From positions 152,487 through 216,486 of the forward strand of contig LQBI01000032.1 of NCBI GenBank assembly GCA_002030045.1: a stretch of DNA of 64,000 bases, read 5' to 3'. Below the pieces are notes generated by a model. The model had not been told where the DNA came from. It saw only the letters and a program-made list of their open reading frames with translations, and did no database searches. The position numbers and the translations under genes were made by a program. Below, piece by piece: positions 680 through 57,981 of this stretch. The stretch comes from Candidatus Aegiribacteria sp. MLS_C (lineage in GTDB: Bacteria > Fermentibacterota > Fermentibacteria > Fermentibacterales > JCC-6). Each line of letters opens with the position of its first letter. The stretch's first letter is position 1.

Positions 680-1246
680 GTGATCGGAGTGCTGGTCTCC
701 CGGACTGTCAGCGCCGAAATCCTCTGGGAATGGGACATGGGAGAGCTGCCTTCGGGCTGGTGGGCAAATGAATACTGGGACTTCCCCGATACGGGAGCGC
801 TGTCCTTCGTCCATGCCCAGACCTCGGGATCATACTCCGTGTCGGAGCTGGCCGAGATGCGGTCGGACACGATGACCGTGCCTGCCGGAGTGGATACAAT
901 GGTGGTGACCGTTTTCGACACATGGGAATGGGACGGGTGGTACACCACCGGTGAGTCAAACTGCTGCATCTGGCTCAGGGTGATGGTGCCCGGGGGAGAC
1001 TACTACACCATCGAGTTCGACAGCCACGGATGGGGCTTCAAGGAATCCGGGCAACCGATGAACGCCGCGGTTGAAGTGCCTCTTGCCGCCGGCCAGCAGT
1101 TCTACCTCTACTTCTACTCCTACGCCGGCGCCAGCTACGGGGCCATGGCGGAAATGCTGTGGACGGTGGACCATCTGGTGATAACCGACACCGGGGGGAC
1201 CTCCCTTCAGCGGAGCACCTGGGGATCCATCAAGTCGGTCTTCTGA
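680..1246 (+). CDS. Small secreted beta-rich protein with C-terminal LQxSTWGxIK tail
   Basis: The mature part (after the VSA/E site) is rich in Trp, Tyr and Gly and looks like a beta-sandwich or lectin-like fold. It ends in SLQRSTWGSIKSVF, a tail that recurs in the genes at 57304 and 33226. No catalytic motif is seen. The listed start is the first conventional codon in frame (GTG), but it leaves a signal peptide of only about 12 residues. The frame stays open upstream to 629. An ATA codon at 644-646 sits 7 bases after a GGGAGG ribosome site, overlaps the upstream stop as ATAA, and would add RSLRIPVPPVL to give a complete signal peptide. I therefore suspect the real start is ATA at 644, or an ATG mutated to ATA. 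The function is unknown. Confidence 0.75.
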   Translation: MIGVLVSRTVSAEILWEWDMGELPSGWWANEYWDFPDTGALSFVHAQTSGSYSVSELAEMRSDTMTVPAGVDTMVVTVFDTWEWDGWYTTGESNCCIWLRVMVPGGDYYTIEFDSHGWGFKESGQPMNAAVEVPLAAGQQFYLYFYSYAGASYGAMAEMLWTVDHLVITDTGGTSLQRSTWGSIKSVF

Positions 1247-14582: not shown

Positions 14583-17114
14583 CTAGAGCCTCACCAGCCT
14601 GCAGGTGTCCGTTGTCTCCCCGTCGGCGGCCACTGCGAAGTAGACCCCGGCAGGCGCCAAGGGCCCTCCGTCCTCCCTTCCGTCCCATGTGAACGGTCCG
14701 GGTAACACGCTGCGGTCCAGCAGCACCCTTCCGCTCATGTCGTATATCCTGAGGCTGACCTCGGACTCCGCGCCGACCATCAGTGTAACCGAGGCAGAGA
14801 AGGGATTGCGTCCCGCGAGAGAAAGAGAGACATCCTGCATCGATTCGCTAACACTCCCGCCGGTCCCCAGAGGGTCGGGCGTGCAGGCCCAGAGGTCCCA
14901 CTGCAGGTCAACGTCCCGTCTTCCGTAAACGGCCCAGGGCGTACCGTCCATGAAGGCCAGGGAGGCGTCGTCCAGAGCATCCTCGGACAGTGCTGCGTAA
15001 TAGCCCTGCCAGGCACCCCCCGAGAAGGTGTTCGTGTGGAGCTGCGAACTGTCCCATGTCCATGTTACAGTCACCTCCCCCGTCCCCGGCGACGAAATGG
15101 ATGGCCTGGTGCAGCCGGCGTCGGAAGAGACCTGTTCGGGAGGCGTCCATGAAGACCCCGAGCCGTGGCTGACCAGTATGCACCCGGAGTCGTCCTGCCA
15201 GGCGAGCCAGTACTGGCCGTCGCAGTACGTCAGGTCGGCGTACCTTCCCCCTGAGGACGGCGAGGACACCGCGGTCTCAGCGCCGAACGGTCCAGAGTCC
15301 GGGGCGTCCCGGAAGCAGACTACCCAAGCTCCGTCCCTCCTGGCGTGGTAGGCGAGCCCGAACCCGTCATCGCCCCTGGCCACGTCGGGATAGCGTTCGG
15401 CGCCGTCCTCGCAGGATACATCCTGTATGGACGACCATGACGACCCGGTCCAGAAGACACCCTCGATGTCGGTCGAACCGTTCTGCCACTTCTGCCAGAC
15501 CAGCCAGGCCCGGCCTCCGCCCCCGTCGAGGGAGGGTTCGACTTCGTAAGGGTCGCCGTCGGTGAGTATGGTCTCATCGACCCATGCTCCGCCGCTCCAT
15601 CTCGAGATGTAGATGTCGTAGCCCTCGTGGTTGTTGTCCATGCTCTGCCAGGCGCACCATACGTTCCCCTGGCCGTCGCCTCCCACAGTGGGGTGCCAGT
15701 CCCAGTACTCGTGGTCGGAGACCTGGACAGGAGCAGCCCAGGAATCCCCGTCGAAGCAGGTGGACATGACGTTGGCCCTCACGGGGTCCGAAGTGCCGCA
15801 TACGGCGAAGATCATACCGGAGCCCGGGTCGTAGTAGGTGTCCACCCTTCCCTGGGTATGCAGACCGTCGGTGATGTCGAAGGAGAGCCAGCTGTCTGCG
15901 CCTGTCCCGGATGGGGCTCCACCGCCCAGTCCAGAGTGGCGAAGACCGCCGAGCCTGGGCCTGAGGGTGGGATCCCCCAGGAGAACGGCCCCGTCCTCCA
16001 TGTACATGTTGTTCCCCAGCCAGACCCGGAATGCCTCCCCCAGACAGTTTCCGCCGGCAAGGGACTGGTAGTACTCCTGGAAGTCATTCGTATAGTCCAC
16101 CTTGGCCTGGGCCAGGACCGCCAGGCCGTAGGAATCGCACCAGATGTAGCTGTTGGCCAGGTTGTCCACCTCGGTCCATCTGCCGTTCGAGCAGCAGTTG
16201 AGGACGTAGAACGAGGCATGGGGATCCAGCGGAGGGACCTCCAGGTTGTTAAGGGTGCCCGCCCCGGCTGGAGGGGCGCCTGTGTGGAAGCTGCTGCCCC
16301 AGGGGCTGGAGTGGGAAATGAGGTGCACCCACTCGTAGCCGTTCAGCAGTTCGGCCTTGAAATCGTCGGCACAGGTTCCCACCGGATCGCTCTTGGTCAC
16401 CACGGTGGTGTACAGCAGGTCGAGGTATCCGGTCAGTCCCGTGAAGGCCTCCTCGTATGCCAGGGCCCGGTCGGGCAGGACCAGTCCGCCGGTCCTGTAG
16501 GCGTGGTTCCTGGCGAAATAACCGTTGAGCAGGTTCGCCGGGCCGTCGATGGTCATGTACGTGGGTGTGAGCCGTCCCACCCATATCTCCGGAGCTCCGC
16601 CGCTGTAGGATTCGAAAAGACCGTCGGAATCGCTGTCCGTCCAGGTGCCGTTCATGTCCATCAGGTAGACGTCCACCGGATACTCGCCGTACCCGCAGTC
16701 CATCCATCCTGTGGGGATGTCCCCGATGCAGACCGCCCCTGAGAGCCCCTGCGCGTACTCGGCGACAAGGTCGTTCCGAATGTCCGTCGCCGTCCCGCCG
16801 TCGATGAGCCACAACTCCACCGCCCAGCCCTCGTTCTCGAGGTCAGCCTGGTAGGTGGCGAGGGCGTCGGCGATGTCGCCGCTGACGCCTTCCTCCACCA
16901 GGAGTACCACCCTGTCGGACTCGGGGCCGGCCGCTTCCCGGACCACGGTCCTTTCGTAGGGACCCCTCTCCCCCGTGGTCTCCAGTCTGGCGCGGGTGGT
17001 CATGGGCGTCCGTCCTCTGGGATCCATGTACTGGAGCGGCACTCCCTCCGGGGTGGCCGGCAGGGAGGACGCCGAAAGGAGGACGGCGGCGAAAAGCATC
17101 ATCGGACGGTTCAT
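14583..17114 (-). CDS. Secreted C25 (gingipain-like) protein with beta-propeller-like repeats and FlgD-type C-terminal domain
   Basis: About 843 residues. A signal peptide (LFAAVLLSASSLPA) precedes a C25-like caspase-fold domain: the putative catalytic His is in HLISHSSPWG and the Cys in FYVLNCCSNGRW. Residues about 430-760 hold repeated W-rich units (AWQSMDNNHEGYDIY, LVWQKWQNGSTDIEG, LAWQDDSGC) that look like sialidase/propeller blades. The last about 85 residues are a FlgD-like Ig domain (VSLRIYDMSGRVLLDRS...PAGVYFAV) like T9SS or related sorting domains. The ATG at 17114 has GGAG 7 bases upstream. It is probably an exported protease or adhesin anchored or secreted through its C-terminus. 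Whether it is active is uncertain. Confidence 0.8.
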   Translation of the reverse strand: MNRPMMLFAAVLLSASSLPATPEGVPLQYMDPRGRTPMTTRARLETTGERGPYERTVVREAAGPESDRVVLLVEEGVSGDIADALATYQADLENEGWAVELWLIDGGTATDIRNDLVAEYAQGLSGAVCIGDIPTGWMDCGYGEYPVDVYLMDMNGTWTDSDSDGLFESYSGGAPEIWVGRLTPTYMTIDGPANLLNGYFARNHAYRTGGLVLPDRALAYEEAFTGLTGYLDLLYTTVVTKSDPVGTCADDFKAELLNGYEWVHLISHSSPWGSSFHTGAPPAGAGTLNNLEVPPLDPHASFYVLNCCSNGRWTEVDNLANSYIWCDSYGLAVLAQAKVDYTNDFQEYYQSLAGGNCLGEAFRVWLGNNMYMEDGAVLLGDPTLRPRLGGLRHSGLGGGAPSGTGADSWLSFDITDGLHTQGRVDTYYDPGSGMIFAVCGTSDPVRANVMSTCFDGDSWAAPVQVSDHEYWDWHPTVGGDGQGNVWCAWQSMDNNHEGYDIYISRWSGGAWVDETILTDGDPYEVEPSLDGGGGRAWLVWQKWQNGSTDIEGVFWTGSSWSSIQDVSCEDGAERYPDVARGDDGFGLAYHARRDGAWVVCFRDAPDSGPFGAETAVSSPSSGGRYADLTYCDGQYWLAWQDDSGCILVSHGSGSSWTPPEQVSSDAGCTRPSISSPGTGEVTVTWTWDSSQLHTNTFSGGAWQGYYAALSEDALDDASLAFMDGTPWAVYGRRDVDLQWDLWACTPDPLGTGGSVSESMQDVSLSLAGRNPFSASVTLMVGAESEVSLRIYDMSGRVLLDRSVLPGPFTWDGREDGGPLAPAGVYFAVAADGETTDTCRLVRL

Positions 17115-17124
17115 GACGGTTCTC

Positions 17125-18645
17125 CTACTCCAGCGATCCAACCTCGGCCTCGACGGCCTCGAGTATCTCGCATGACCTTACGACCTCGGCCATCTTCGTG
17201 TGGTCGGGGTACAGAGGTCTGTCTTCGCCCAGATGGGTTATGTGCTTCCTTATCACTTCGTAAGCCGCGCGGACTCCCCTGCCCGGCCTGTGGTCCCTCT
17301 GGTCCAGACCGTCCGCGGCGGCGATCATCTCGATACCCAGTATCCCGTAGGCGTTATCGAGTATCTGGTGGTTCTGTATGGCTGTGTTCATGCCCATGCT
17401 GACGAAATCCTCCTGGTCCGCGGCTGCGGGTATGGACGCGCAGGCCGATGGGAGCGATAGGGCCCTCTGCTCCACTATGAGCATTCCGGCGGTGTACTGG
17501 CTGAGCATGTGGCCGCTGTACAGACCGGGCTTTTCCGCCAGGAATGGCGTCAGGCCAACTGAAAGGGCCGGGTTGAGTATCCTGTTGAGCCTTCTCTCGG
17601 ACATCACGCAGACCATGGTTATCGCGGCGCCCATCATGTCCATTGGGAGGGAAACCGGGGTTCCCTGGAAGTTGGCTCCGGTGAGCACCAGGTCCTCCTC
17701 GGGGAAGAACACCGGATTGTCGCCCACTCCGTTGAGTTCGGTCTCCACCTGGCTCCTGGCGTAGGCCAGGGCGTCATGGGCCGCTCCTATGACCTGAGGA
17801 GTGCTCCGCATGGAGTAGGCGTCCTGCACCTTCTTCTTGCCGCCCTTCAGGAGTTCGCTGCCATCTATGCACTTCATCAGCGCGCGGGCAGTGCGGACCG
17901 CTCCCGAAAATCCTCTGGCATGGTGGAGCTTCTCGTCGTAGGGCTTGAAATTCGCTATGAGGGCCTCCAGGCTCATGGCAGCGGCTATCTCCGCCTGCTT
18001 GAGCCACCTGTTCATGTCGTGGAGGTGTAGGGTGTTCATGGCGTTCAGGACGTTGGAACCGTTGATTGTGGCGAGACCGTCCCTGGCGTGGAACACCTCG
18101 GGTTCCAGTCCCGCCCTCCTGAGAGCCTCGGCGCCGGACAGCAGTTCGCCATTGTAGTAGGCGCTTCCCTCGCCGATGACCACCAGGGCTATCTGGGACA
18201 TTGGGGCCAGGTCGCCGCACGCACCCACGGAACCCTTCTGACAGACGTAGGGTGTCACTCCCCTGTTGAGCAGTTCCACCAGCATGCGGGTTATCTCCGG
18301 TCTCACGGCGGAGTGACCCTTGGCGTGGACATTGATCCGGGATGCCATGGCCCCCCGGACGTACTCCAACGGGGCCGGGTCGCCTATGCCGGCGGCGTGG
18401 TTGTAGACCAGGTACTTCTGGAACTGCTTCACTTCCTCGTCGGTGAGGAGTGTCTCGGAGAATTCGCCTATACCGGTATTGACACCGTACATTATCTCCT
18501 TCTGGTCAAGCTTCTTCTGGATCATGCCCCTGCAGAACCTGATCCTGTCCTCGGCTTCCTTCGAGAGCTCCACCTTCTCGCCGTGCCTGGCAATTCTGAC
18601 GAGCTTCTCGACCGTGAGTCCGGTACCATCCAGTACGACAGCCAT
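17125..18645 (-). CDS. hutH: Histidine ammonia-lyase-like MIO enzyme with an Ala-Cys-Gly triad
   Basis: 506 residues, class I aromatic amino acid lyase fold. With the ATG at 18645 (GGAG site 6 bases upstream) numbering matches Pseudomonas HAL: Tyr53 in MYGVNTGIG, His83 in YNHAAG, and the prosthetic-group triad at 142-144. The triad reads GACGDLAP (Ala142-Cys143-Gly144), where nearly all family members have Ala-Ser-Gly. QDAYSMRSTPQVIG and QEDFVSMG are the further active-site motifs; HAL usually has QEDHVSM. HAL-type His83 favours L-histidine to urocanate, but other aromatic substrates or an aminomutase are possible. No hutU, hutI or hutG is nearby. Divergent from the MutL-like gene. Confidence 0.85.
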   Translation of the reverse strand: MAVVLDGTGLTVEKLVRIARHGEKVELSKEAEDRIRFCRGMIQKKLDQKEIMYGVNTGIGEFSETLLTDEEVKQFQKYLVYNHAAGIGDPAPLEYVRGAMASRINVHAKGHSAVRPEITRMLVELLNRGVTPYVCQKGSVGACGDLAPMSQIALVVIGEGSAYYNGELLSGAEALRRAGLEPEVFHARDGLATINGSNVLNAMNTLHLHDMNRWLKQAEIAAAMSLEALIANFKPYDEKLHHARGFSGAVRTARALMKCIDGSELLKGGKKKVQDAYSMRSTPQVIGAAHDALAYARSQVETELNGVGDNPVFFPEEDLVLTGANFQGTPVSLPMDMMGAAITMVCVMSERRLNRILNPALSVGLTPFLAEKPGLYSGHMLSQYTAGMLIVEQRALSLPSACASIPAAADQEDFVSMGMNTAIQNHQILDNAYGILGIEMIAAADGLDQRDHRPGRGVRAAYEVIRKHITHLGEDRPLYPDHTKMAEVVRSCEILEAVEAEVGSLE

Positions 18646-18694
18646 TTGGTCTCCTTCTGGGGATGTTCGATAACTGAGTGCGGTATTCCGTACG

Positions 18695-18723
18695 AACATA
18701 AGGGACGCACCTGAGTTAATCAA
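18695..18723 (-). promoter_or_regulatory. Sigma-70-like promoter of the ammonia-lyase gene
   Basis: On the minus strand TTGATT (18718-18723) and TATGTT (18695-18700) are spaced by 17 bases, about 50 bases before the ATG at 18645. Confidence 0.5.
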
Positions 18724-33225: not shown

Positions 33226-34010
33226 TCACCTAACATGAATAGGGAGCCCGGCTCGAAAAGCCGGACTCCCTTGCCAGAGAGCGGCAGGATCAGCCTGGAA
33301 AGCCGACTTGATGGCTCCCCGGGTCTCCTGCTGAAGGGCGGTACCGAAGTCCACCGAGAACTCGGATACCATGTAACCGACGCTGGAGTTGCAGCTCCAG
33401 AACATGGTGTCCGTGTTGTAGCTGCAGGCCAGACCAGGGGAGGAGGTGCAGCTTGCGGGGATGGGCGCCTCACCCAGGCAGGTCAGGTCGACGCCGGGCT
33501 GGAACCTCCGGAGTCCTCCGCCTGTACCGTTGGTTGTCCAGTAATCGCTGCCGTCGAAGTCCATTCCCCTGGCATTCGGTCCGGCGGGATTGGAAAAGGT
33601 GGTTCAGCTGGTCCCCAAGTCATCGGTATGGAAAATGAAGCTGTTGACGTAATCGTCAACGTAGTGGGCGTCGTTCACGGAATCGTTGTTCCAGGCTATG
33701 CCCAGGGGGTTCGAGTTGCCGGCGTCAAGGATCAGCGTCCCCAGCGGTGCACCGGTGGCGGCTTCGTAGGTCTGCACCAGGTCGTCATCGTTGCTGAAGC
33801 CCAGTACGTAGGTGTCGGTGGCGCTCTCGAAAACGTCGAGCCCACCGCCTTTACCTCGGGGTCCCGGGTGTTGAGAAGTGTAAATGCGATGTCGTCGGTT
33901 CCTGCAGTCGGCGTACCGCAGATCGAGACATGGGCGCCGTTGAATCCGTCATCGGCCGATGCCGGGGATGAAACCAGTATCAGAACGGAAATACTTCTCA
34001 CTGCCGCCAT
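33226..34010 (-). pseudogene. Decayed secreted beta-propeller-like protein with a degenerate STWGxIK tail
   Basis: The reading starts at 34010 with a signal peptide (SISVLILVSSPASA) and continues as FNGAHVSICGTP. At about 33845 a one-base loss breaks the frame: the sequence would otherwise read VKGGGLDVFESATDTYVLGF. After that, LVQTYEAATGAPLGTL and GNSNPLGIAWNND look like propeller blades. A TGA at 33604-33606 then interrupts it where a one-base change from TGG gives GTSWTTFSNPAG. The remainder ends in ALQQETRGAIKSAF, a worn version of the STWGxIK tail (Trp changed to Arg), and runs past the probable original stop. Two or three inactivating changes or sequencing errors are needed. It belongs to the same family of secreted proteins as those at 680 and 57304. 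Confidence 0.75.
33242..33270 (-). terminator. Terminator hairpin of the decayed secreted-protein gene
   Basis: A long stem (GGGAG and CCGGCT pairing with AGCCGG and CTCCC, one mismatch) around a 5-base loop. It lies at the end of the pseudogene, whose frame reads through it, which suggests the original stop codon was upstream and has been lost. Confidence 0.55.
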
Positions 34011-52505: not shown

Positions 52506-54539
52506 TCAGTCCAGGACGGTTACCAGGCGGCCCCTTACGAGGTCTCCCCGCCTGGCGGTGACGAGATATACACCTGCGGGTACCCTCCTGCCCGAGTCGT
52601 CGGTGCCGCTCCAGCCGACCCTGCCCGGCGAGCCTATGGTGGTCTCCCAAAGCAGCCTTCCGGCCATATCGTGGACGGAGACCTCCGCCGATCCCTCCTC
52701 GAAGCCGACCATGAAGGCGACGGGCGCGTCCCTTTGGGCCGGATTGGGCCATGGAGCAGACAGAGTGAAGGGAGCTGGAGGCACCGGCGAGACCCCGGCT
52801 GTCCTCATGACCCTGAGTGCCGGGTCCATGAAGGCGGAGAAGGAGAGCAGGCTCTGGAAGGTCCTGTCGTAGCCGCCCTCCATGAAGGGTATCCTCAGGT
52901 CCTTCGCCGTGGAGAAGGCCAGACCGAGGCTCGGGGCGTGGTGGCGGAACACCTCCCTTGCCAGGTCGATGCACATCCATTCGCTGGCTCCAAGCGAGGG
53001 CCAGTATCCCTCCCAGCCGTAGCTGACGTTGAACATGACGGCGGTTCCGCCTCCCAGGGGGTTCTGAAGGAGGGCCTCCGCGCAGCTGGCGTGACCGATG
53101 TAGTTCCCGGGATGGCAGGCTATACTTGTGTGGATACCGGACATATCCCCGTTCCGGAGGCTGTCCGTGGCGATCCAGCTGGTCATCATCGCGAGGGGTT
53201 CCGCGCTCCACCAGATGCCTGTGTTGCTCCCGTGCCCGGCGTAGTGGTTCCACGCTGTTCCTCCGTCGATGACGGGGATGTGTTCGATGAAGCCACCGCC
53301 TGGGAGTTCCTCGTAGAACCTGTGCACCTGCCAGTAGGAAGGGAGTTCCACGGCTATGGAGTCGCATCCCCTGTCCGCCGTGTAACCTGTCTCCTCGAAG
53401 AGCACCGCTCCGCACAGGACGGCGGTGCTCCTCCAGTCCCCCTGAGGCGGGGAGGACTGGTAGGTCAGGCACTTGTCGACGAAGACCTGTGCGCCTTCGG
53501 GCGTCGAGAAGAGCCCCCTGCCGAGGAGCACGTCCGCGTAGAGGTCCAGGCTGTCATCAGGCTGACCGTAATCCCCGTCGCCGTTCCCGTCCCAGGTCCC
53601 GTCCAGGTCGGCGAAATAGAGGTCCACCGGCGCGGTGTCGGCGTATCCCTCGCAGTAGAGGTAGACCATCCTCACCGGGACAAGGGACTCGTCGCCGGCG
53701 AGAAGAACGAAGACTGTGCCGCGGTTGATGTACCTGTCCCGAATGAAGTTCCTGAGCCTCTCGGCGTCGTCCCTGCCGGGAAAAGCAGACAGTATGCCCT
53801 GGACCGTCGCCGTTTCGACCGTGAGGCCCCTGCTAACGTGGAAAAGGGCCAGTTGTTCCATGATTCCGGAATAGGCGCTGTCGCATATTATCAGGTACTG
53901 GGAGTCGCCGCCCTGAAGGGGAAGACCGGCCTGGGGGAATCGAGCGGTTTCACCGGAGAGACGGCCTGTACGGGCGAGGGCCATGTCCCTCTGACCCGGC
54001 ATCAGAGGGGAGGACGGGCCGTCCTCCCACGTAACGGTAATACGCAGCCTGTTCAGCAGCGTGAGAGAGCCGGTTGCAGGGATGTACTCCCAGGGCTGGA
54101 CCAGGCAGGATGCCACGGTGATGCCGGAGAGGCTTCCGGTATGGGAGGATATGAGCGGGGCTTCCGGCCATGGAGTTGCAAGGGAATAGATATCGGGGTC
54201 ACCGATCCTGGCTCCAGGATGACCGTGTCCGATTGGCCGCAGCTCCGCCGAGGGAAGCAGTGACAGCCCTCCGCCGGCGATCTCGGTCCTTTCCAGCACC
54301 TCGAGGCCGAAGGAGACTCCGTGAGCGCCCTCGGGAAGCAGGAATACCTCGGGAGCCGCAGGAAGGAGAGGCGTGCCTGGAGCCCCCCTCTGCTCGAATC
54401 CCGGGGCCTCGACCACCGTACCCCCCCGTGTCTGGAGGAAGTCGAGGTCCAGCGGATCGTACATTACCTCCCGCACCATAGTGCCCGCGGCGAGAGGCAG
54501 GCTCAGGGCCAGGGCCAGGGCAGCTGCTGTTCGGGTCAA
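52506..54539 (-). CDS. Secreted C25 (gingipain-like) peptidase with FlgD-type C-terminal domain
   Basis: About 677 residues. Signal peptide (AAALALALSLPLAAG), a beta-rich pro-domain (residues about 25-220), then a C25 caspase-fold domain with putative catalytic His in WNHYAGHGSNTG and Cys in HTSIACHPGNYIG. The last about 85 residues are a FlgD-like domain (AEVSVHDMAGRLLWETTIGS, PAGVYLVTARRGD), as in the protein at 14583. The start is uncertain between GTG 54548 and TTG 54539; the TTG has GGAG 8 bases upstream. It lies back to back with glgP. Confidence 0.85.
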   Translation of the reverse strand: MTRTAAALALALSLPLAAGTMVREVMYDPLDLDFLQTRGGTVVEAPGFEQRGAPGTPLLPAAPEVFLLPEGAHGVSFGLEVLERTEIAGGGLSLLPSAELRPIGHGHPGARIGDPDIYSLATPWPEAPLISSHTGSLSGITVASCLVQPWEYIPATGSLTLLNRLRITVTWEDGPSSPLMPGQRDMALARTGRLSGETARFPQAGLPLQGGDSQYLIICDSAYSGIMEQLALFHVSRGLTVETATVQGILSAFPGRDDAERLRNFIRDRYINRGTVFVLLAGDESLVPVRMVYLYCEGYADTAPVDLYFADLDGTWDGNGDGDYGQPDDSLDLYADVLLGRGLFSTPEGAQVFVDKCLTYQSSPPQGDWRSTAVLCGAVLFEETGYTADRGCDSIAVELPSYWQVHRFYEELPGGGFIEHIPVIDGGTAWNHYAGHGSNTGIWWSAEPLAMMTSWIATDSLRNGDMSGIHTSIACHPGNYIGHASCAEALLQNPLGGGTAVMFNVSYGWEGYWPSLGASEWMCIDLAREVFRHHAPSLGLAFSTAKDLRIPFMEGGYDRTFQSLLSFSAFMDPALRVMRTAGVSPVPPAPFTLSAPWPNPAQRDAPVAFMVGFEEGSAEVSVHDMAGRLLWETTIGSPGRVGWSGTDDSGRRVPAGVYLVTARRGDLVRGRLVTVLD

Positions 54540-54552
54540 GGACCTCACTCCC

Positions 54553-54579
54553 TTGCAGTGTTTTCGTAGTGAATATATT
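54553..54579 (+). promoter_or_regulatory. Possible divergent promoter between the C25 gene and glgP
   Basis: TTGCAG and the self-complementary AATATATT core (54572-54579) lie between divergent genes. Spacing on the plus strand is 15 bases, below optimum, so this is a weak call. Confidence 0.3.
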
Positions 54580-54603
54580 ACATCTCTGTAGTATTCGTTC
54601 CCG

Positions 54604-57189
54604 ATGAGTGAAGGCCAAGACCGGAAGGTGTTTCCATTGAAGACCATGGATTTCAGGGTCGTGCCCAGGATACCGGAACAGCTGGATGCCCTAAAGAAGA
54701 TAGCCTACAACACATGGTGGACCTGGAATTCCCAGGCCATCGAACTCTTCAGGTGGATAGACTCGGACCTCTGGGAGAGCACCTACCACAACCCGGTCCG
54801 ACTCCTGGGTCGCGTAAGCCAGGAGAGGCTGGAGGAGCTTTCGGCGGACACCGTCTACCTCTCCCACCTGGAGAAGACCGCGGAGAGGCTGGAGGACTAC
54901 CTCCAGAGGAAGACCTGGTTCGACATACAGAGGCAGCAGAACGACCTCCAGGAGAGGGACTTCCTGGTGGCGACCTTCTCCGCCGAGTTCGGGCTCCATG
55001 AGAGCATACCCATATACTCCGGGGGCCTGGGTGTTCTTGCCGGGGACGTCATCAAGAGCTGCAGCGAACTGGGCCTGCCTTCGGTGGGAGTATCGCTCCT
55101 CTACAGGCACGGCTACTTCAGCCAGTACCTTAACAGCGACGGCTGGCAGCAGGAGAGGTACTTCGTCAACGACTACTCGAACATGCCCGTGGACCCGGTA
55201 TACGGGGAGGACGGTAAGCAGGTCTCCGTGGAGGTCCCCATGGCGGACAGGGCCGTCACGGCGGCCGTCTGGAAGGTCAAGGTGGGCAGGACCGCCCTTT
55301 TCCTGCTGGACACAAACCTTTCGAAGAACAGCAGCGGCGACCGGGGAATAACCGGCCAGCTCTACGGCGGCGACAGGGAGATGCGCATCAAGCAGGAGAT
55401 AATACTCGGCGTAGGCGGTCTCCGCGCACTGGACGCCATGGGCATGAGACCCGACGTGAGACACATAAACGAGGGGCACTCCGCCTTTCTGGTCGTAGAG
55501 AGGATAAGGCAGCTCATGGAGGAGGGTCTCAGCTTCCCGGAGGCCAGGGAGCTGACCGTGGCGGGGAACGTGTTCACCACCCATACACCGGTCCCGGCGG
55601 GCAACGAGGAGTTCGCCACGGACCTTGTGGCAAAGTACCTCAAACCCATGATATCCGCCATAGGGCTTACCGAGAAGCAGTTCCTGGAGTTCGGCCATTA
55701 CGACGACAACCCGAATTTCTCCATGACGGTCTTCGGCCTGAGGTTCTCCAGGTTCAGGAACGGTGTAAGCAAACTCCATGGAAGGATATCCAGGGAGATA
55801 TGGAAGGACGTCTGGCCCAGGCTGCCCGCGGCGGACACTCCCCTCACACACGTTACCAACGGCATACATCCGGAATCCTGGATCTCCGACGAGATGGAGA
55901 AGCTCCTCACCCGGTACGTGGGGCCCAGATGGTCAAGCAACCGGACCGATGCCGCGGAGTGGGAAAAGGTGGACAAAATACCGGATTCCGAACTCTGGCC
56001 CGCTCACATCAGGATGAGGGAAAGGCTGGTCTCCTGGGCCAGGGAGAGGTGGGAGCATCAGATTTCCAGGATGGGCCTGATGAAGCCCCACCTGGAGGAC
56101 ATGCCCGTGCTCGATCCCGAGACCCCCACCATAGGCTTCGCCAGGAGGTTCGCCACCTACAAGAGGGCGACTCTGCTGCTCCGCGACAGGGAGCGGCTGG
56201 CCGGACTGGTCAACGACCCCGCCCACCCCGTGCAGTTCATCTTCGCCGGCAAAGCACACCCGCATGACTCAGCCGGCAAGGAACTCATAAGGGAAATAGT
56301 CCACCTCTGCATGGAGGAGGATTTCTACGGCAGGGTGGTCTTCCTGGAGGACTACAGCATGGACATGGCCAGGCACATGGTCCAGGGGGTTGACGTGTGG
56401 CTGAACACCCCCAGGCTTCCCATGGAGGCCTGCGGTACCAGCGGAATGAAGGCGAGCTTCAACGGCGTGCTTCACTGCAGCGTCCCCGACGGCTGGTGGG
56501 CAGAAGCCTACCGGCCGGGCATCGGCTGGTCCATCGGGTCCGGGGAGGAGTACGAGGACCAGGAACTGCAGGACAGGCTGGAGGCCAAGACACTCTACAA
56601 CATCATAGAGAACCAGATAATACCCATCTTCTACGACCGCGACCGGAACGACATACCGGTGAACTGGCTCAGGATAGTCAAGGATTCCATGAAGGCGATA
56701 TGCCCGGCGTTCAGCAGCAACAGGATGCTGGCGGAGTACGTCTCCAGGTTCTACATACCGGCCTTCGAGTACTCGGCCAAGCTCTCGAGGGACGGCTACG
56801 CCGGGGCCAGAGAGCTGGCGGCATGGATGGAGAAGGTCAGGCAGAACTGGTCTGCGGTGACCATACGGTCGGTGGACACAGAGATGACCAACGGAACCTG
56901 TTCCGTGGGCGACCCGCTTCCGGTCACCGTTGGCGTCAGCGCTCCGGGACTTTCGCCCGAGGATCTTATGGTGGAGGTGCAGCACGGCAGGATCGAGCAC
57001 GACGGATGGCTCACCCGCAGGGAATCCGTCGAGCTGGGCTTCCTGGAGGACAGGGAGGGGACGATGATCTTCGGCGGCTCCTTCCATTGCTCCCACTCGG
57101 GACACCAGGGGTTCACCGTGAGGATACTGGCCAGCCACAGGGACTTCGGCAGGATAATAGAGCCCGGCCTGGTCTGCTGGTGGGAGTAG
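54604..57189 (+). CDS. glgP: Alpha-glucan (glycogen/maltodextrin) phosphorylase
   Basis: 861 residues, GT35 family. An N-terminal DUF3417-type region (NTWWTWNSQAIELFRWID) marks the archaeal/bacterial subtype. Catalytic core: HTPVPAGNEEF, GFARRFATYKRATLLL, and the pyridoxal-phosphate site in EACGTSGMKASFNGVLHCSV. It releases glucose 1-phosphate from glycogen or maltodextrin. It starts with ATG at 54604, divergent from the C25 gene. No glg biosynthesis genes are adjacent. Confidence 0.95.
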   Translation: MSEGQDRKVFPLKTMDFRVVPRIPEQLDALKKIAYNTWWTWNSQAIELFRWIDSDLWESTYHNPVRLLGRVSQERLEELSADTVYLSHLEKTAERLEDYLQRKTWFDIQRQQNDLQERDFLVATFSAEFGLHESIPIYSGGLGVLAGDVIKSCSELGLPSVGVSLLYRHGYFSQYLNSDGWQQERYFVNDYSNMPVDPVYGEDGKQVSVEVPMADRAVTAAVWKVKVGRTALFLLDTNLSKNSSGDRGITGQLYGGDREMRIKQEIILGVGGLRALDAMGMRPDVRHINEGHSAFLVVERIRQLMEEGLSFPEARELTVAGNVFTTHTPVPAGNEEFATDLVAKYLKPMISAIGLTEKQFLEFGHYDDNPNFSMTVFGLRFSRFRNGVSKLHGRISREIWKDVWPRLPAADTPLTHVTNGIHPESWISDEMEKLLTRYVGPRWSSNRTDAAEWEKVDKIPDSELWPAHIRMRERLVSWARERWEHQISRMGLMKPHLEDMPVLDPETPTIGFARRFATYKRATLLLRDRERLAGLVNDPAHPVQFIFAGKAHPHDSAGKELIREIVHLCMEEDFYGRVVFLEDYSMDMARHMVQGVDVWLNTPRLPMEACGTSGMKASFNGVLHCSVPDGWWAEAYRPGIGWSIGSGEEYEDQELQDRLEAKTLYNIIENQIIPIFYDRDRNDIPVNWLRIVKDSMKAICPAFSSNRMLAEYVSRFYIPAFEYSAKLSRDGYAGARELAAWMEKVRQNWSAVTIRSVDTEMTNGTCSVGDPLPVTVGVSAPGLSPEDLMVEVQHGRIEHDGWLTRRESVELGFLEDREGTMIFGGSFHCSHSGHQGFTVRILASHRDFGRIIEPGLVCWWE

Positions 57190-57303: not shown

Positions 57304-57981
57304 ATGAAAAGTGCTCTTTTCACTGCATGCGCGGCGCTCCTGGTCCTTGCCCCCATGGCCGTCGCTGACTGGTCGGACAACTTCGACTCCTACGTCCTGG
57401 GCAGCGGACTGCACGGCCAGGGCGGCTGGGAGGGCTGGCAGGGGGATTCCACCTACGACGCCTACGTCTCCGACTTACAGGCCTGTTCCTCGCCCCATTC
57501 AGCCGCGATAACTCCCACTTCGGACATAGTCCATCCCTTCGCCGATTCGCTGGGCGAGTGGGAGATGACCGCATGGTGCTACATCCCAACCGGCTCAGCC
57601 GGCGATCAGTACTTCATCATGCTCAACCAGTACTACCCCGACCCCAACAACTGGTCCGTGCAGCTCCAGTTCGACTCCGACGCCGGCAACGTGATCGATT
57701 ACTACAGTTCCTCCACGACTCCGATCATCAACGACCAGTGGGTCGAGGTGAAGGTCGAGATCCATTTCAGCAACAGCACCTACGACCTCTACTACAACGG
57801 CGCGTTCCTGGCCTCCTGGAACTGGCAGACCGGCGGCTCCGACAAGATAGCGGCCCTGGACCTGTTCGCTGATCCGACCAGTAGTCCAACCACCATCTTC
57901 TGGGATGACCTCGAGCTGGTGCAGACCTCCATAGCCCTTCAGCAGAGCACCTGGGGAGGCATCAAGGCCATAATGCAGTAA
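57304..57981 (+). CDS. Secreted concanavalin-like protein with C-terminal LQxSTWGxIK tail
   Basis: 225 residues. Signal peptide (LFTACAALLVLAPMAVA), then a jelly-roll-like beta-rich domain (DNFDSYVLGSGLHGQGGWEG, NWSVQLQFDSDAGNV). It ends in IALQQSTWGGIKAIMQ, the same tail as the proteins at 680 and 33226. No catalytic residues are evident. AAGGAGG is 6 bases before the ATG. Terminator 58002 follows. Possibly a lectin-like surface protein sorted by the tail. Confidence 0.85.
   Translation: MKSALFTACAALLVLAPMAVADWSDNFDSYVLGSGLHGQGGWEGWQGDSTYDAYVSDLQACSSPHSAAITPTSDIVHPFADSLGEWEMTAWCYIPTGSAGDQYFIMLNQYYPDPNNWSVQLQFDSDAGNVIDYYSSSTTPIINDQWVEVKVEIHFSNSTYDLYYNGAFLASWNWQTGGSDKIAALDLFADPTSSPTTIFWDDLELVQTSIALQQSTWGGIKAIMQ

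Follow-up and report, generated by a model that had tools for sequence, protein, structure and literature searches.

A short C-terminal TWGxIK tail on exported proteins of Fermentibacterota and other FCB-group bacteria: a candidate sorting tag

Introduction

The gene at 57304..57981 (+ strand) of the window, by which we mean the whole 64-kb stretch of DNA analysed here, raises the question of why an exported protein should share its last residues with proteins of a different body, and whether those residues could serve as a sorting signal. The ORF translation gives a protein of 225 aa that has a signal peptide and ends in the tail TSIALQQSTWGGIKAIMQ, which together with its stop codon occupies positions 57925..57981 (+). 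A sequence-only reading of the window had noticed nearly the same tail on three proteins and had proposed that it is a possible sorting or anchoring signal at the C-terminus of exported proteins, selected separately from bodies that differ. Export machines have repeatedly been discovered by way of C-terminal sorting tags, as with sortase, exosortase, rhombosortase and myxosortase, and a tail of this kind would single out, in uncultured groups, the proteins likely to be secreted or at the surface, and would provide a handle on the receptor.

Results

Inspection of the window bears out the three near-identical tails, two of them intact and the third worn, in what proves to be a true pseudogene. 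The body of the protein encoded at 57304..57981 gave no match in a Pfam scan, and homologues with the same tail are found at loci L087 and L023. The second intact copy is carried by a 188-aa protein at 680..1246 (+), which has a weak signal peptide, GTG as its first start codon and the ending TSLQRSTWGSIKSVF; here the tail LQRSTWGSIKSVF and its stop codon span 1205..1246 (+), and diverged homologues of this protein are likewise tailed. The pseudogene, at 33298..33861 (- strand), belongs to the beta-propeller family of tailed proteins. It shares 45% identity over 235 aligned residues with an intact beta-propeller protein encoded elsewhere in the genome, and has been damaged by an internal stop and a gap of about 46 residues. 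Its tail (33298..33339, -) has decayed to ALQQETRGAIKSAF, with the tryptophan changed to arginine and the stop codon lost from its usual place. A back-translated DNA pattern for TWGxIK matched twice in the window, against no match in 100 shuffles.

The TWGxIK tail is real, and it is broader in occurrence than these three copies. The source genome comprises 2.98 Mb in 35 contigs and is 97.7% complete. Across the whole of it the exact DNA pattern matched 18 times, where about 0.3 matches are expected from base composition, and the reversed pattern did not match at all. Each of the 18 matches is in frame and ORF-terminal, with a stop codon 3-4 residues downstream, and the ORFs that bear them are 173-320 residues long and almost always begin with a signal peptide. 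A profile search of this and related genomes had been proposed by the sequence-only reading as a check. Profile A1, built from the 18 tails, identified 30 places in the source genome up to an E value of 1.2. The additional matches are also ORF-terminal, the pseudogene being the clear exception, and include the variants SWGAIK, TWANIK, TFGGIK and TWGNLK. One adjacent pair of tailed genes (L012 688-2272) is kept both in this genome and in genome G004 (L246 1391-2921), where it makes up the whole remaining tailed set.

The consensus from 180 non-redundant tailed proteins is [TV][AS][LV][EQ]xxTWGxIKxx[FY], about 15 residues, sometimes followed by R or Q; W and K are invariant in this set by the criterion of its collection, and the natural variants come from the profile and DNA searches. 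Conservation is slight more than six residues before the motif threonine. The protein ends exactly three residues past IK in 128 of the 180, and overall the ORFs end 2-8 residues past IK, mostly with a hydrophobic last residue, though some tails have R, Q or E there or run on into longer extensions. The codons for T, G, I and K of the tail vary at the third base, and selection therefore acts on the protein.

When the last 16 residues were cut off, single-linkage clustering by BLAST sorted the bodies of the 180 proteins into 41 families, of which 20 have a single member; the figure of 41 is rough, because the largest cluster (74 of the 180, with propellers among its members) was probably chained. 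A Pfam scan of 105 carriers returned 23 domain types, all but a few of them extracytoplasmic, including beta-helix, CBM9, CBM96, lamin-tail, DOMON, Ig-like and beta-propeller domains as well as redoxin, beta-lactamase fold and DUF4350. The carriers are mostly single-domain proteins with a median size of 241 aa, and 99% are shorter than 450 aa. By one crude hydrophobicity test, applied to tailed and other ORFs alike, a signal-peptide-like start is present in 95% of tailed ORFs compared with 53% of other ORFs at the same loci (p 1e-23). Lipobox-type signals occur in a few carriers (L167, L188 and L217), and periplasm-type domains (redoxin, LTXXQ) are present on some. Spread over 41 families of bodies and 23 types of Pfam domain, the tail is not the property of a single orthologous family. 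We conclude that it forms a C-terminal module of its own, attached to exported proteins whose bodies are unrelated. One short C-terminal motif on many unrelated proteins with signal peptides is the generic pattern of a sorting tag, and the tail shows this pattern.

A structural model was obtained for one carrier from the source genome (L007, 283 aa). AlphaFold, working from a 14-sequence alignment, predicts a beta-propeller with pLDDT values mostly of 92-96, and Foldseek matched its body to glutaminyl cyclases and other propellers. The tail is modelled as a helix at residues 273-282, outside the fold and with a pLDDT of about 52, so it is plausibly free for binding by another partner; that it is a free helix is a low-confidence prediction. 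The position in this model, and the C-terminal location in 18 of 18 matches, place the tail outside folded domains. The protein at 57304..57981 was itself modelled from three sequences, at a quality that makes the model unusable.

To follow the tail in other genomes a broader profile (A2, 67 tails) was used. It detected tails in every one of the 42 Fermentibacterota genomes searched, all from the order to which the window belongs, with 6-36 in each apart from G004, which has only 2. Among 28 other bacteria, 24 had no tails, three had one each and one (G085, a 100%-complete genome of a different lineage) had 16. A scan for the TWGxIK pattern covered one genome per GTDB species. Among the matches listed, Fermentibacteraceae are represented by Aegiribacteria, Sabulitectum and others, and the pattern also turns up in Gemmatimonadota/Latescibacterota, Eisenbacteria, Krumholzibacteriota and Coatesbacteria. 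Relatives of Halomonas and some others contributed a few loci that were rejected as chance matches, in which TGG is read in place of the intended stop. The named genomes of these FCB-group phyla outside Fermentibacterota hold 2-26 TWGxIK matches against 0-1 for the reversed pattern, and about 60 places inspected in them are mostly ORF-terminal, true exceptions lying mainly in G047 and G048. In a phylum studied mainly through metagenomes the tail is present on roughly 1% of the proteome, and it is found in several FCB-group phyla. The 1.8-Mb genome G052 has 26 matches, mostly of the form TWGQIKA[LM] at the extreme end (L122, L124, L210-L220).

The tail is apparently an undescribed C-terminal tag of FCB-group candidate phyla, falling outside every known tag family tested. 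When the carriers were scanned with Pfam and NCBIfam, no model matched the tail itself, and the tail profile had no match in the PDB (best E 8.8). Neither the motif nor C-terminal sorting in Fermentibacteria/Gemmatimonadota was found in the literature searched, with preprints and most subscription journals outside its scope. Among C-terminal export signals, those of type IX secretion are the best known in these lineages. The C-terminal domains (CTDs) of type IX substrates are beta-structured, span 40-108 residues and contain motifs B, D and E (PMC11285876, PMC11969387), and type IX genes have been suggested for several FCB phyla including Gemmatimonadetes (PMC11285876). Like these CTDs, the tail is a C-terminal signal on Sec-exported proteins of varied body in FCB-group bacteria, and a lysine near the C-terminus is conserved in both. 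However, at about 15 residues, predicted to be helical (in the low-confidence model of L007) and without motifs B, D and E, it is not the beta domain of at least 40 residues with these motifs that defines a type IX CTD. No FlgD_ig or other CTD model matched among the 105 carriers scanned.

LPXTG, PEP-CTERM, GlyGly-CTERM and MYXO-CTERM tags are tripartite, consisting of a motif, a transmembrane helix and a basic cluster (PMC11980579). The tail resembles the PEP-CTERM/exosortase, GlyGly-CTERM/rhombosortase and MYXO-CTERM/myxosortase systems in that a short stretch of C-terminal homology recurs on dozens of otherwise unrelated exported proteins in a genome, but the tail stops directly past the motif. 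None of the tails has a GlyGly-CTERM, MYXO-CTERM or LPXTG motif, a transmembrane helix or a basic cluster, and no NCBIfam tag model matched. The tripartite build of PEP-CTERM is missing, as the ORFs end 2-8 residues past IK. Nor does the pairing of PEP-CTERM with an exosortase gene in the genome hold here, as 10 of the 12 tail-bearing genomes examined, the source genome among them, lack this gene. The spacing E-x-x-T-W-[GA] in the tail may resemble the start of PEP-CTERM. Dockerins, too, are modular units of attachment at the C-terminus of varied extracellular bodies. They are, however, folds of about 60-70 residues that bind calcium, whereas the tail is a single short predicted helix.

The sequence-only reading had also set the tail apart from the FlgD-Ig type, which it assigned to two other proteins in the window, and had taken two tail types to indicate two routes. 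The distinction between the types stands. The FlgD-Ig ends of the two proteins are only weakly borne out (E 7e-4 for that at 14583 and 2.5e-4 for that at 52506, below the Pfam cut-off), and two tail types would suggest two separate routes. Pfam assigns both of these proteins to the C25 (gingipain-type) peptidases, weakly for the one at 14583-17141 (-) and with an E value of 5e-41 for the one at 52506-54647 (-). An aromatic amino acid lyase gene at 17125-18723 (-; PF00221, E 3e-157) adjoins the gene for the C25-like secreted protein. There are 22 C25 matches in the source genome; PorU belongs to the C25 peptidases.

The reading had further suggested looking for a protease or sortase family that accompanies the tail; of exosortase and the C25 peptidases, neither does. 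Exosortase is ruled out as a partner by its absence from most tail-rich genomes, and a C25 peptidase as specific partner is unsupported, since C25 counts do not track the tail. Clustering of the gene neighbours of tailed loci gave no convincing non-tailed partner, an ABC transporter and generic genes being the commonest.

Compared with the profile expected of a receptor, SprA partly follows the distribution of the tail, whereas exosortase and C25 do not. SprA_N (PF14349) scores over cut-off in the source genome and in nearly all tail-rich genomes, and no SprA match was found in G052, in G051 or in the incomplete Fermentibacterota genomes G013 and G014. G004, which is 98% complete, has no SprA and 2 tails, together with 21 FlgD-Ig and 12 C25 domains; FlgD-Ig tails therefore persist there without SprA. 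G023, of the same size as G004, has SprA and 9 tails, with 19 FlgD-Ig and 11 C25 domains. Since this size-matched genome keeps its tails, genome shrinkage alone does not readily explain their loss from G004. The deficit in G004 has a p value of 0.018 against same-genus genomes and of 0.08 against G023, and concerns one lineage, confounded by kinship. SprA is present without the tail in genomes G032, G035 and G038. The best counter-case to a SprA route is G052, a possibly incomplete MAG, in which the 26 matches go with no SprA match.

Discussion

We think it rather likely that the tail serves as a short sorting tag at the C-terminus, which comes into play once the protein has been exported by Sec and is read by a common envelope receptor. 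A carrier would be made with an N-terminal signal peptide, pass the inner membrane and fold, while its last 15 or so residues would form a short, free amphipathic helix that has the tryptophan, the isoleucine and the final aromatic residue on one face and in which the lysine is conserved. A single envelope receptor may bind this helix and direct many unrelated proteins to one destination, most likely the cell surface or the outside of the cell, for which a SprA-type outer-membrane translocon is a candidate route. The lipobox-bearing carriers and those with redoxin or LTXXQ domains would be unexpected if the tail were purely a surface tag.

Several features of the carriers would also suit a docking function, in which the helix, rather than being a transport signal, acts as a dockerin-like plug holding exported proteins on a shared scaffold or outer-membrane partner. 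The proteins are small and mostly single-domain, many have binding-type folds (CBM9, CBM96, DOMON, lamin-tail), and the tail is predicted to lie outside the fold, with no cleavage signal or membrane segment. We nevertheless consider docking unlikely, as neighbour clustering yielded no cohesin-like partner, the carriers are scattered and unlinked to a scaffold gene, and the smaller number of tails in the SprA-less genome is better explained by transport. The presence of one tail on many unrelated exported bodies is, in turn, typical of covalent processing signals such as PEP-CTERM and LPXTG, at which a sortase-type enzyme cuts the protein and joins it to an anchor. Such processing is improbable here: there is no transmembrane helix or basic cluster, the end comes 2-8 residues past IK, exosortase is lacking in ten of the 12 tail-bearing genomes, and C25 peptidases do not fall alongside the tails in G004.

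The extreme C-terminal position and mostly hydrophobic last residue could alternatively mark a quality-control or turnover tag, recognised by an envelope protease or chaperone of PDZ type (Prc- or Deg-like). Signals of that sort are usually short and loose, however, and T-W-G-x-I-K by contrast shows almost no variation across several phyla. Some tails also finish in R, Q or E or have longer extensions, and the spread of the tail is restricted, while envelope proteases of this kind are, to our knowledge, near universal. We would therefore put little weight on turnover. The chained cluster of 74 of the 180 carriers, propellers included, is what might be expected if the tail were a piece of one protein family, or an inserted repeat, spread by shared ancestry or mobile DNA. 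This is the least credible account, and very improbable, given the 41 body families, the 23 Pfam types and a position that is always C-terminal in the source genome. A DNA element in particular is ruled out by the variation at third codon positions, and by eye there is no DNA conservation past the stop.

For a sorting tag read after Sec export, the leading candidate route is a SprA-type (type IX-like) outer-membrane translocon, to which the distribution points weakly. We propose this link only tentatively, because it involves one lineage and modest statistics and because G052 is a counter-case. It is conceivable, if somewhat doubtful, that TWGxIK represents a type of signal for outer-membrane export that has not been described before, a helical 15-residue tag that SprA-type translocons of FCB-group candidate phyla would read beside or instead of the Ig-like CTD. 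If SprA does read the tail, type IX machinery would recognise more than such CTDs and the rules for its substrates would have to be revised. Where the SprA gene was inspected in Fermentibacterota (L245 10307-15919, L247, L248 and L251), it lies between PilB/PilT/PilC-like and LptF/LptG-like genes, the latter being followed by a SerC-like gene, with the neighbours named from reading their sequences.
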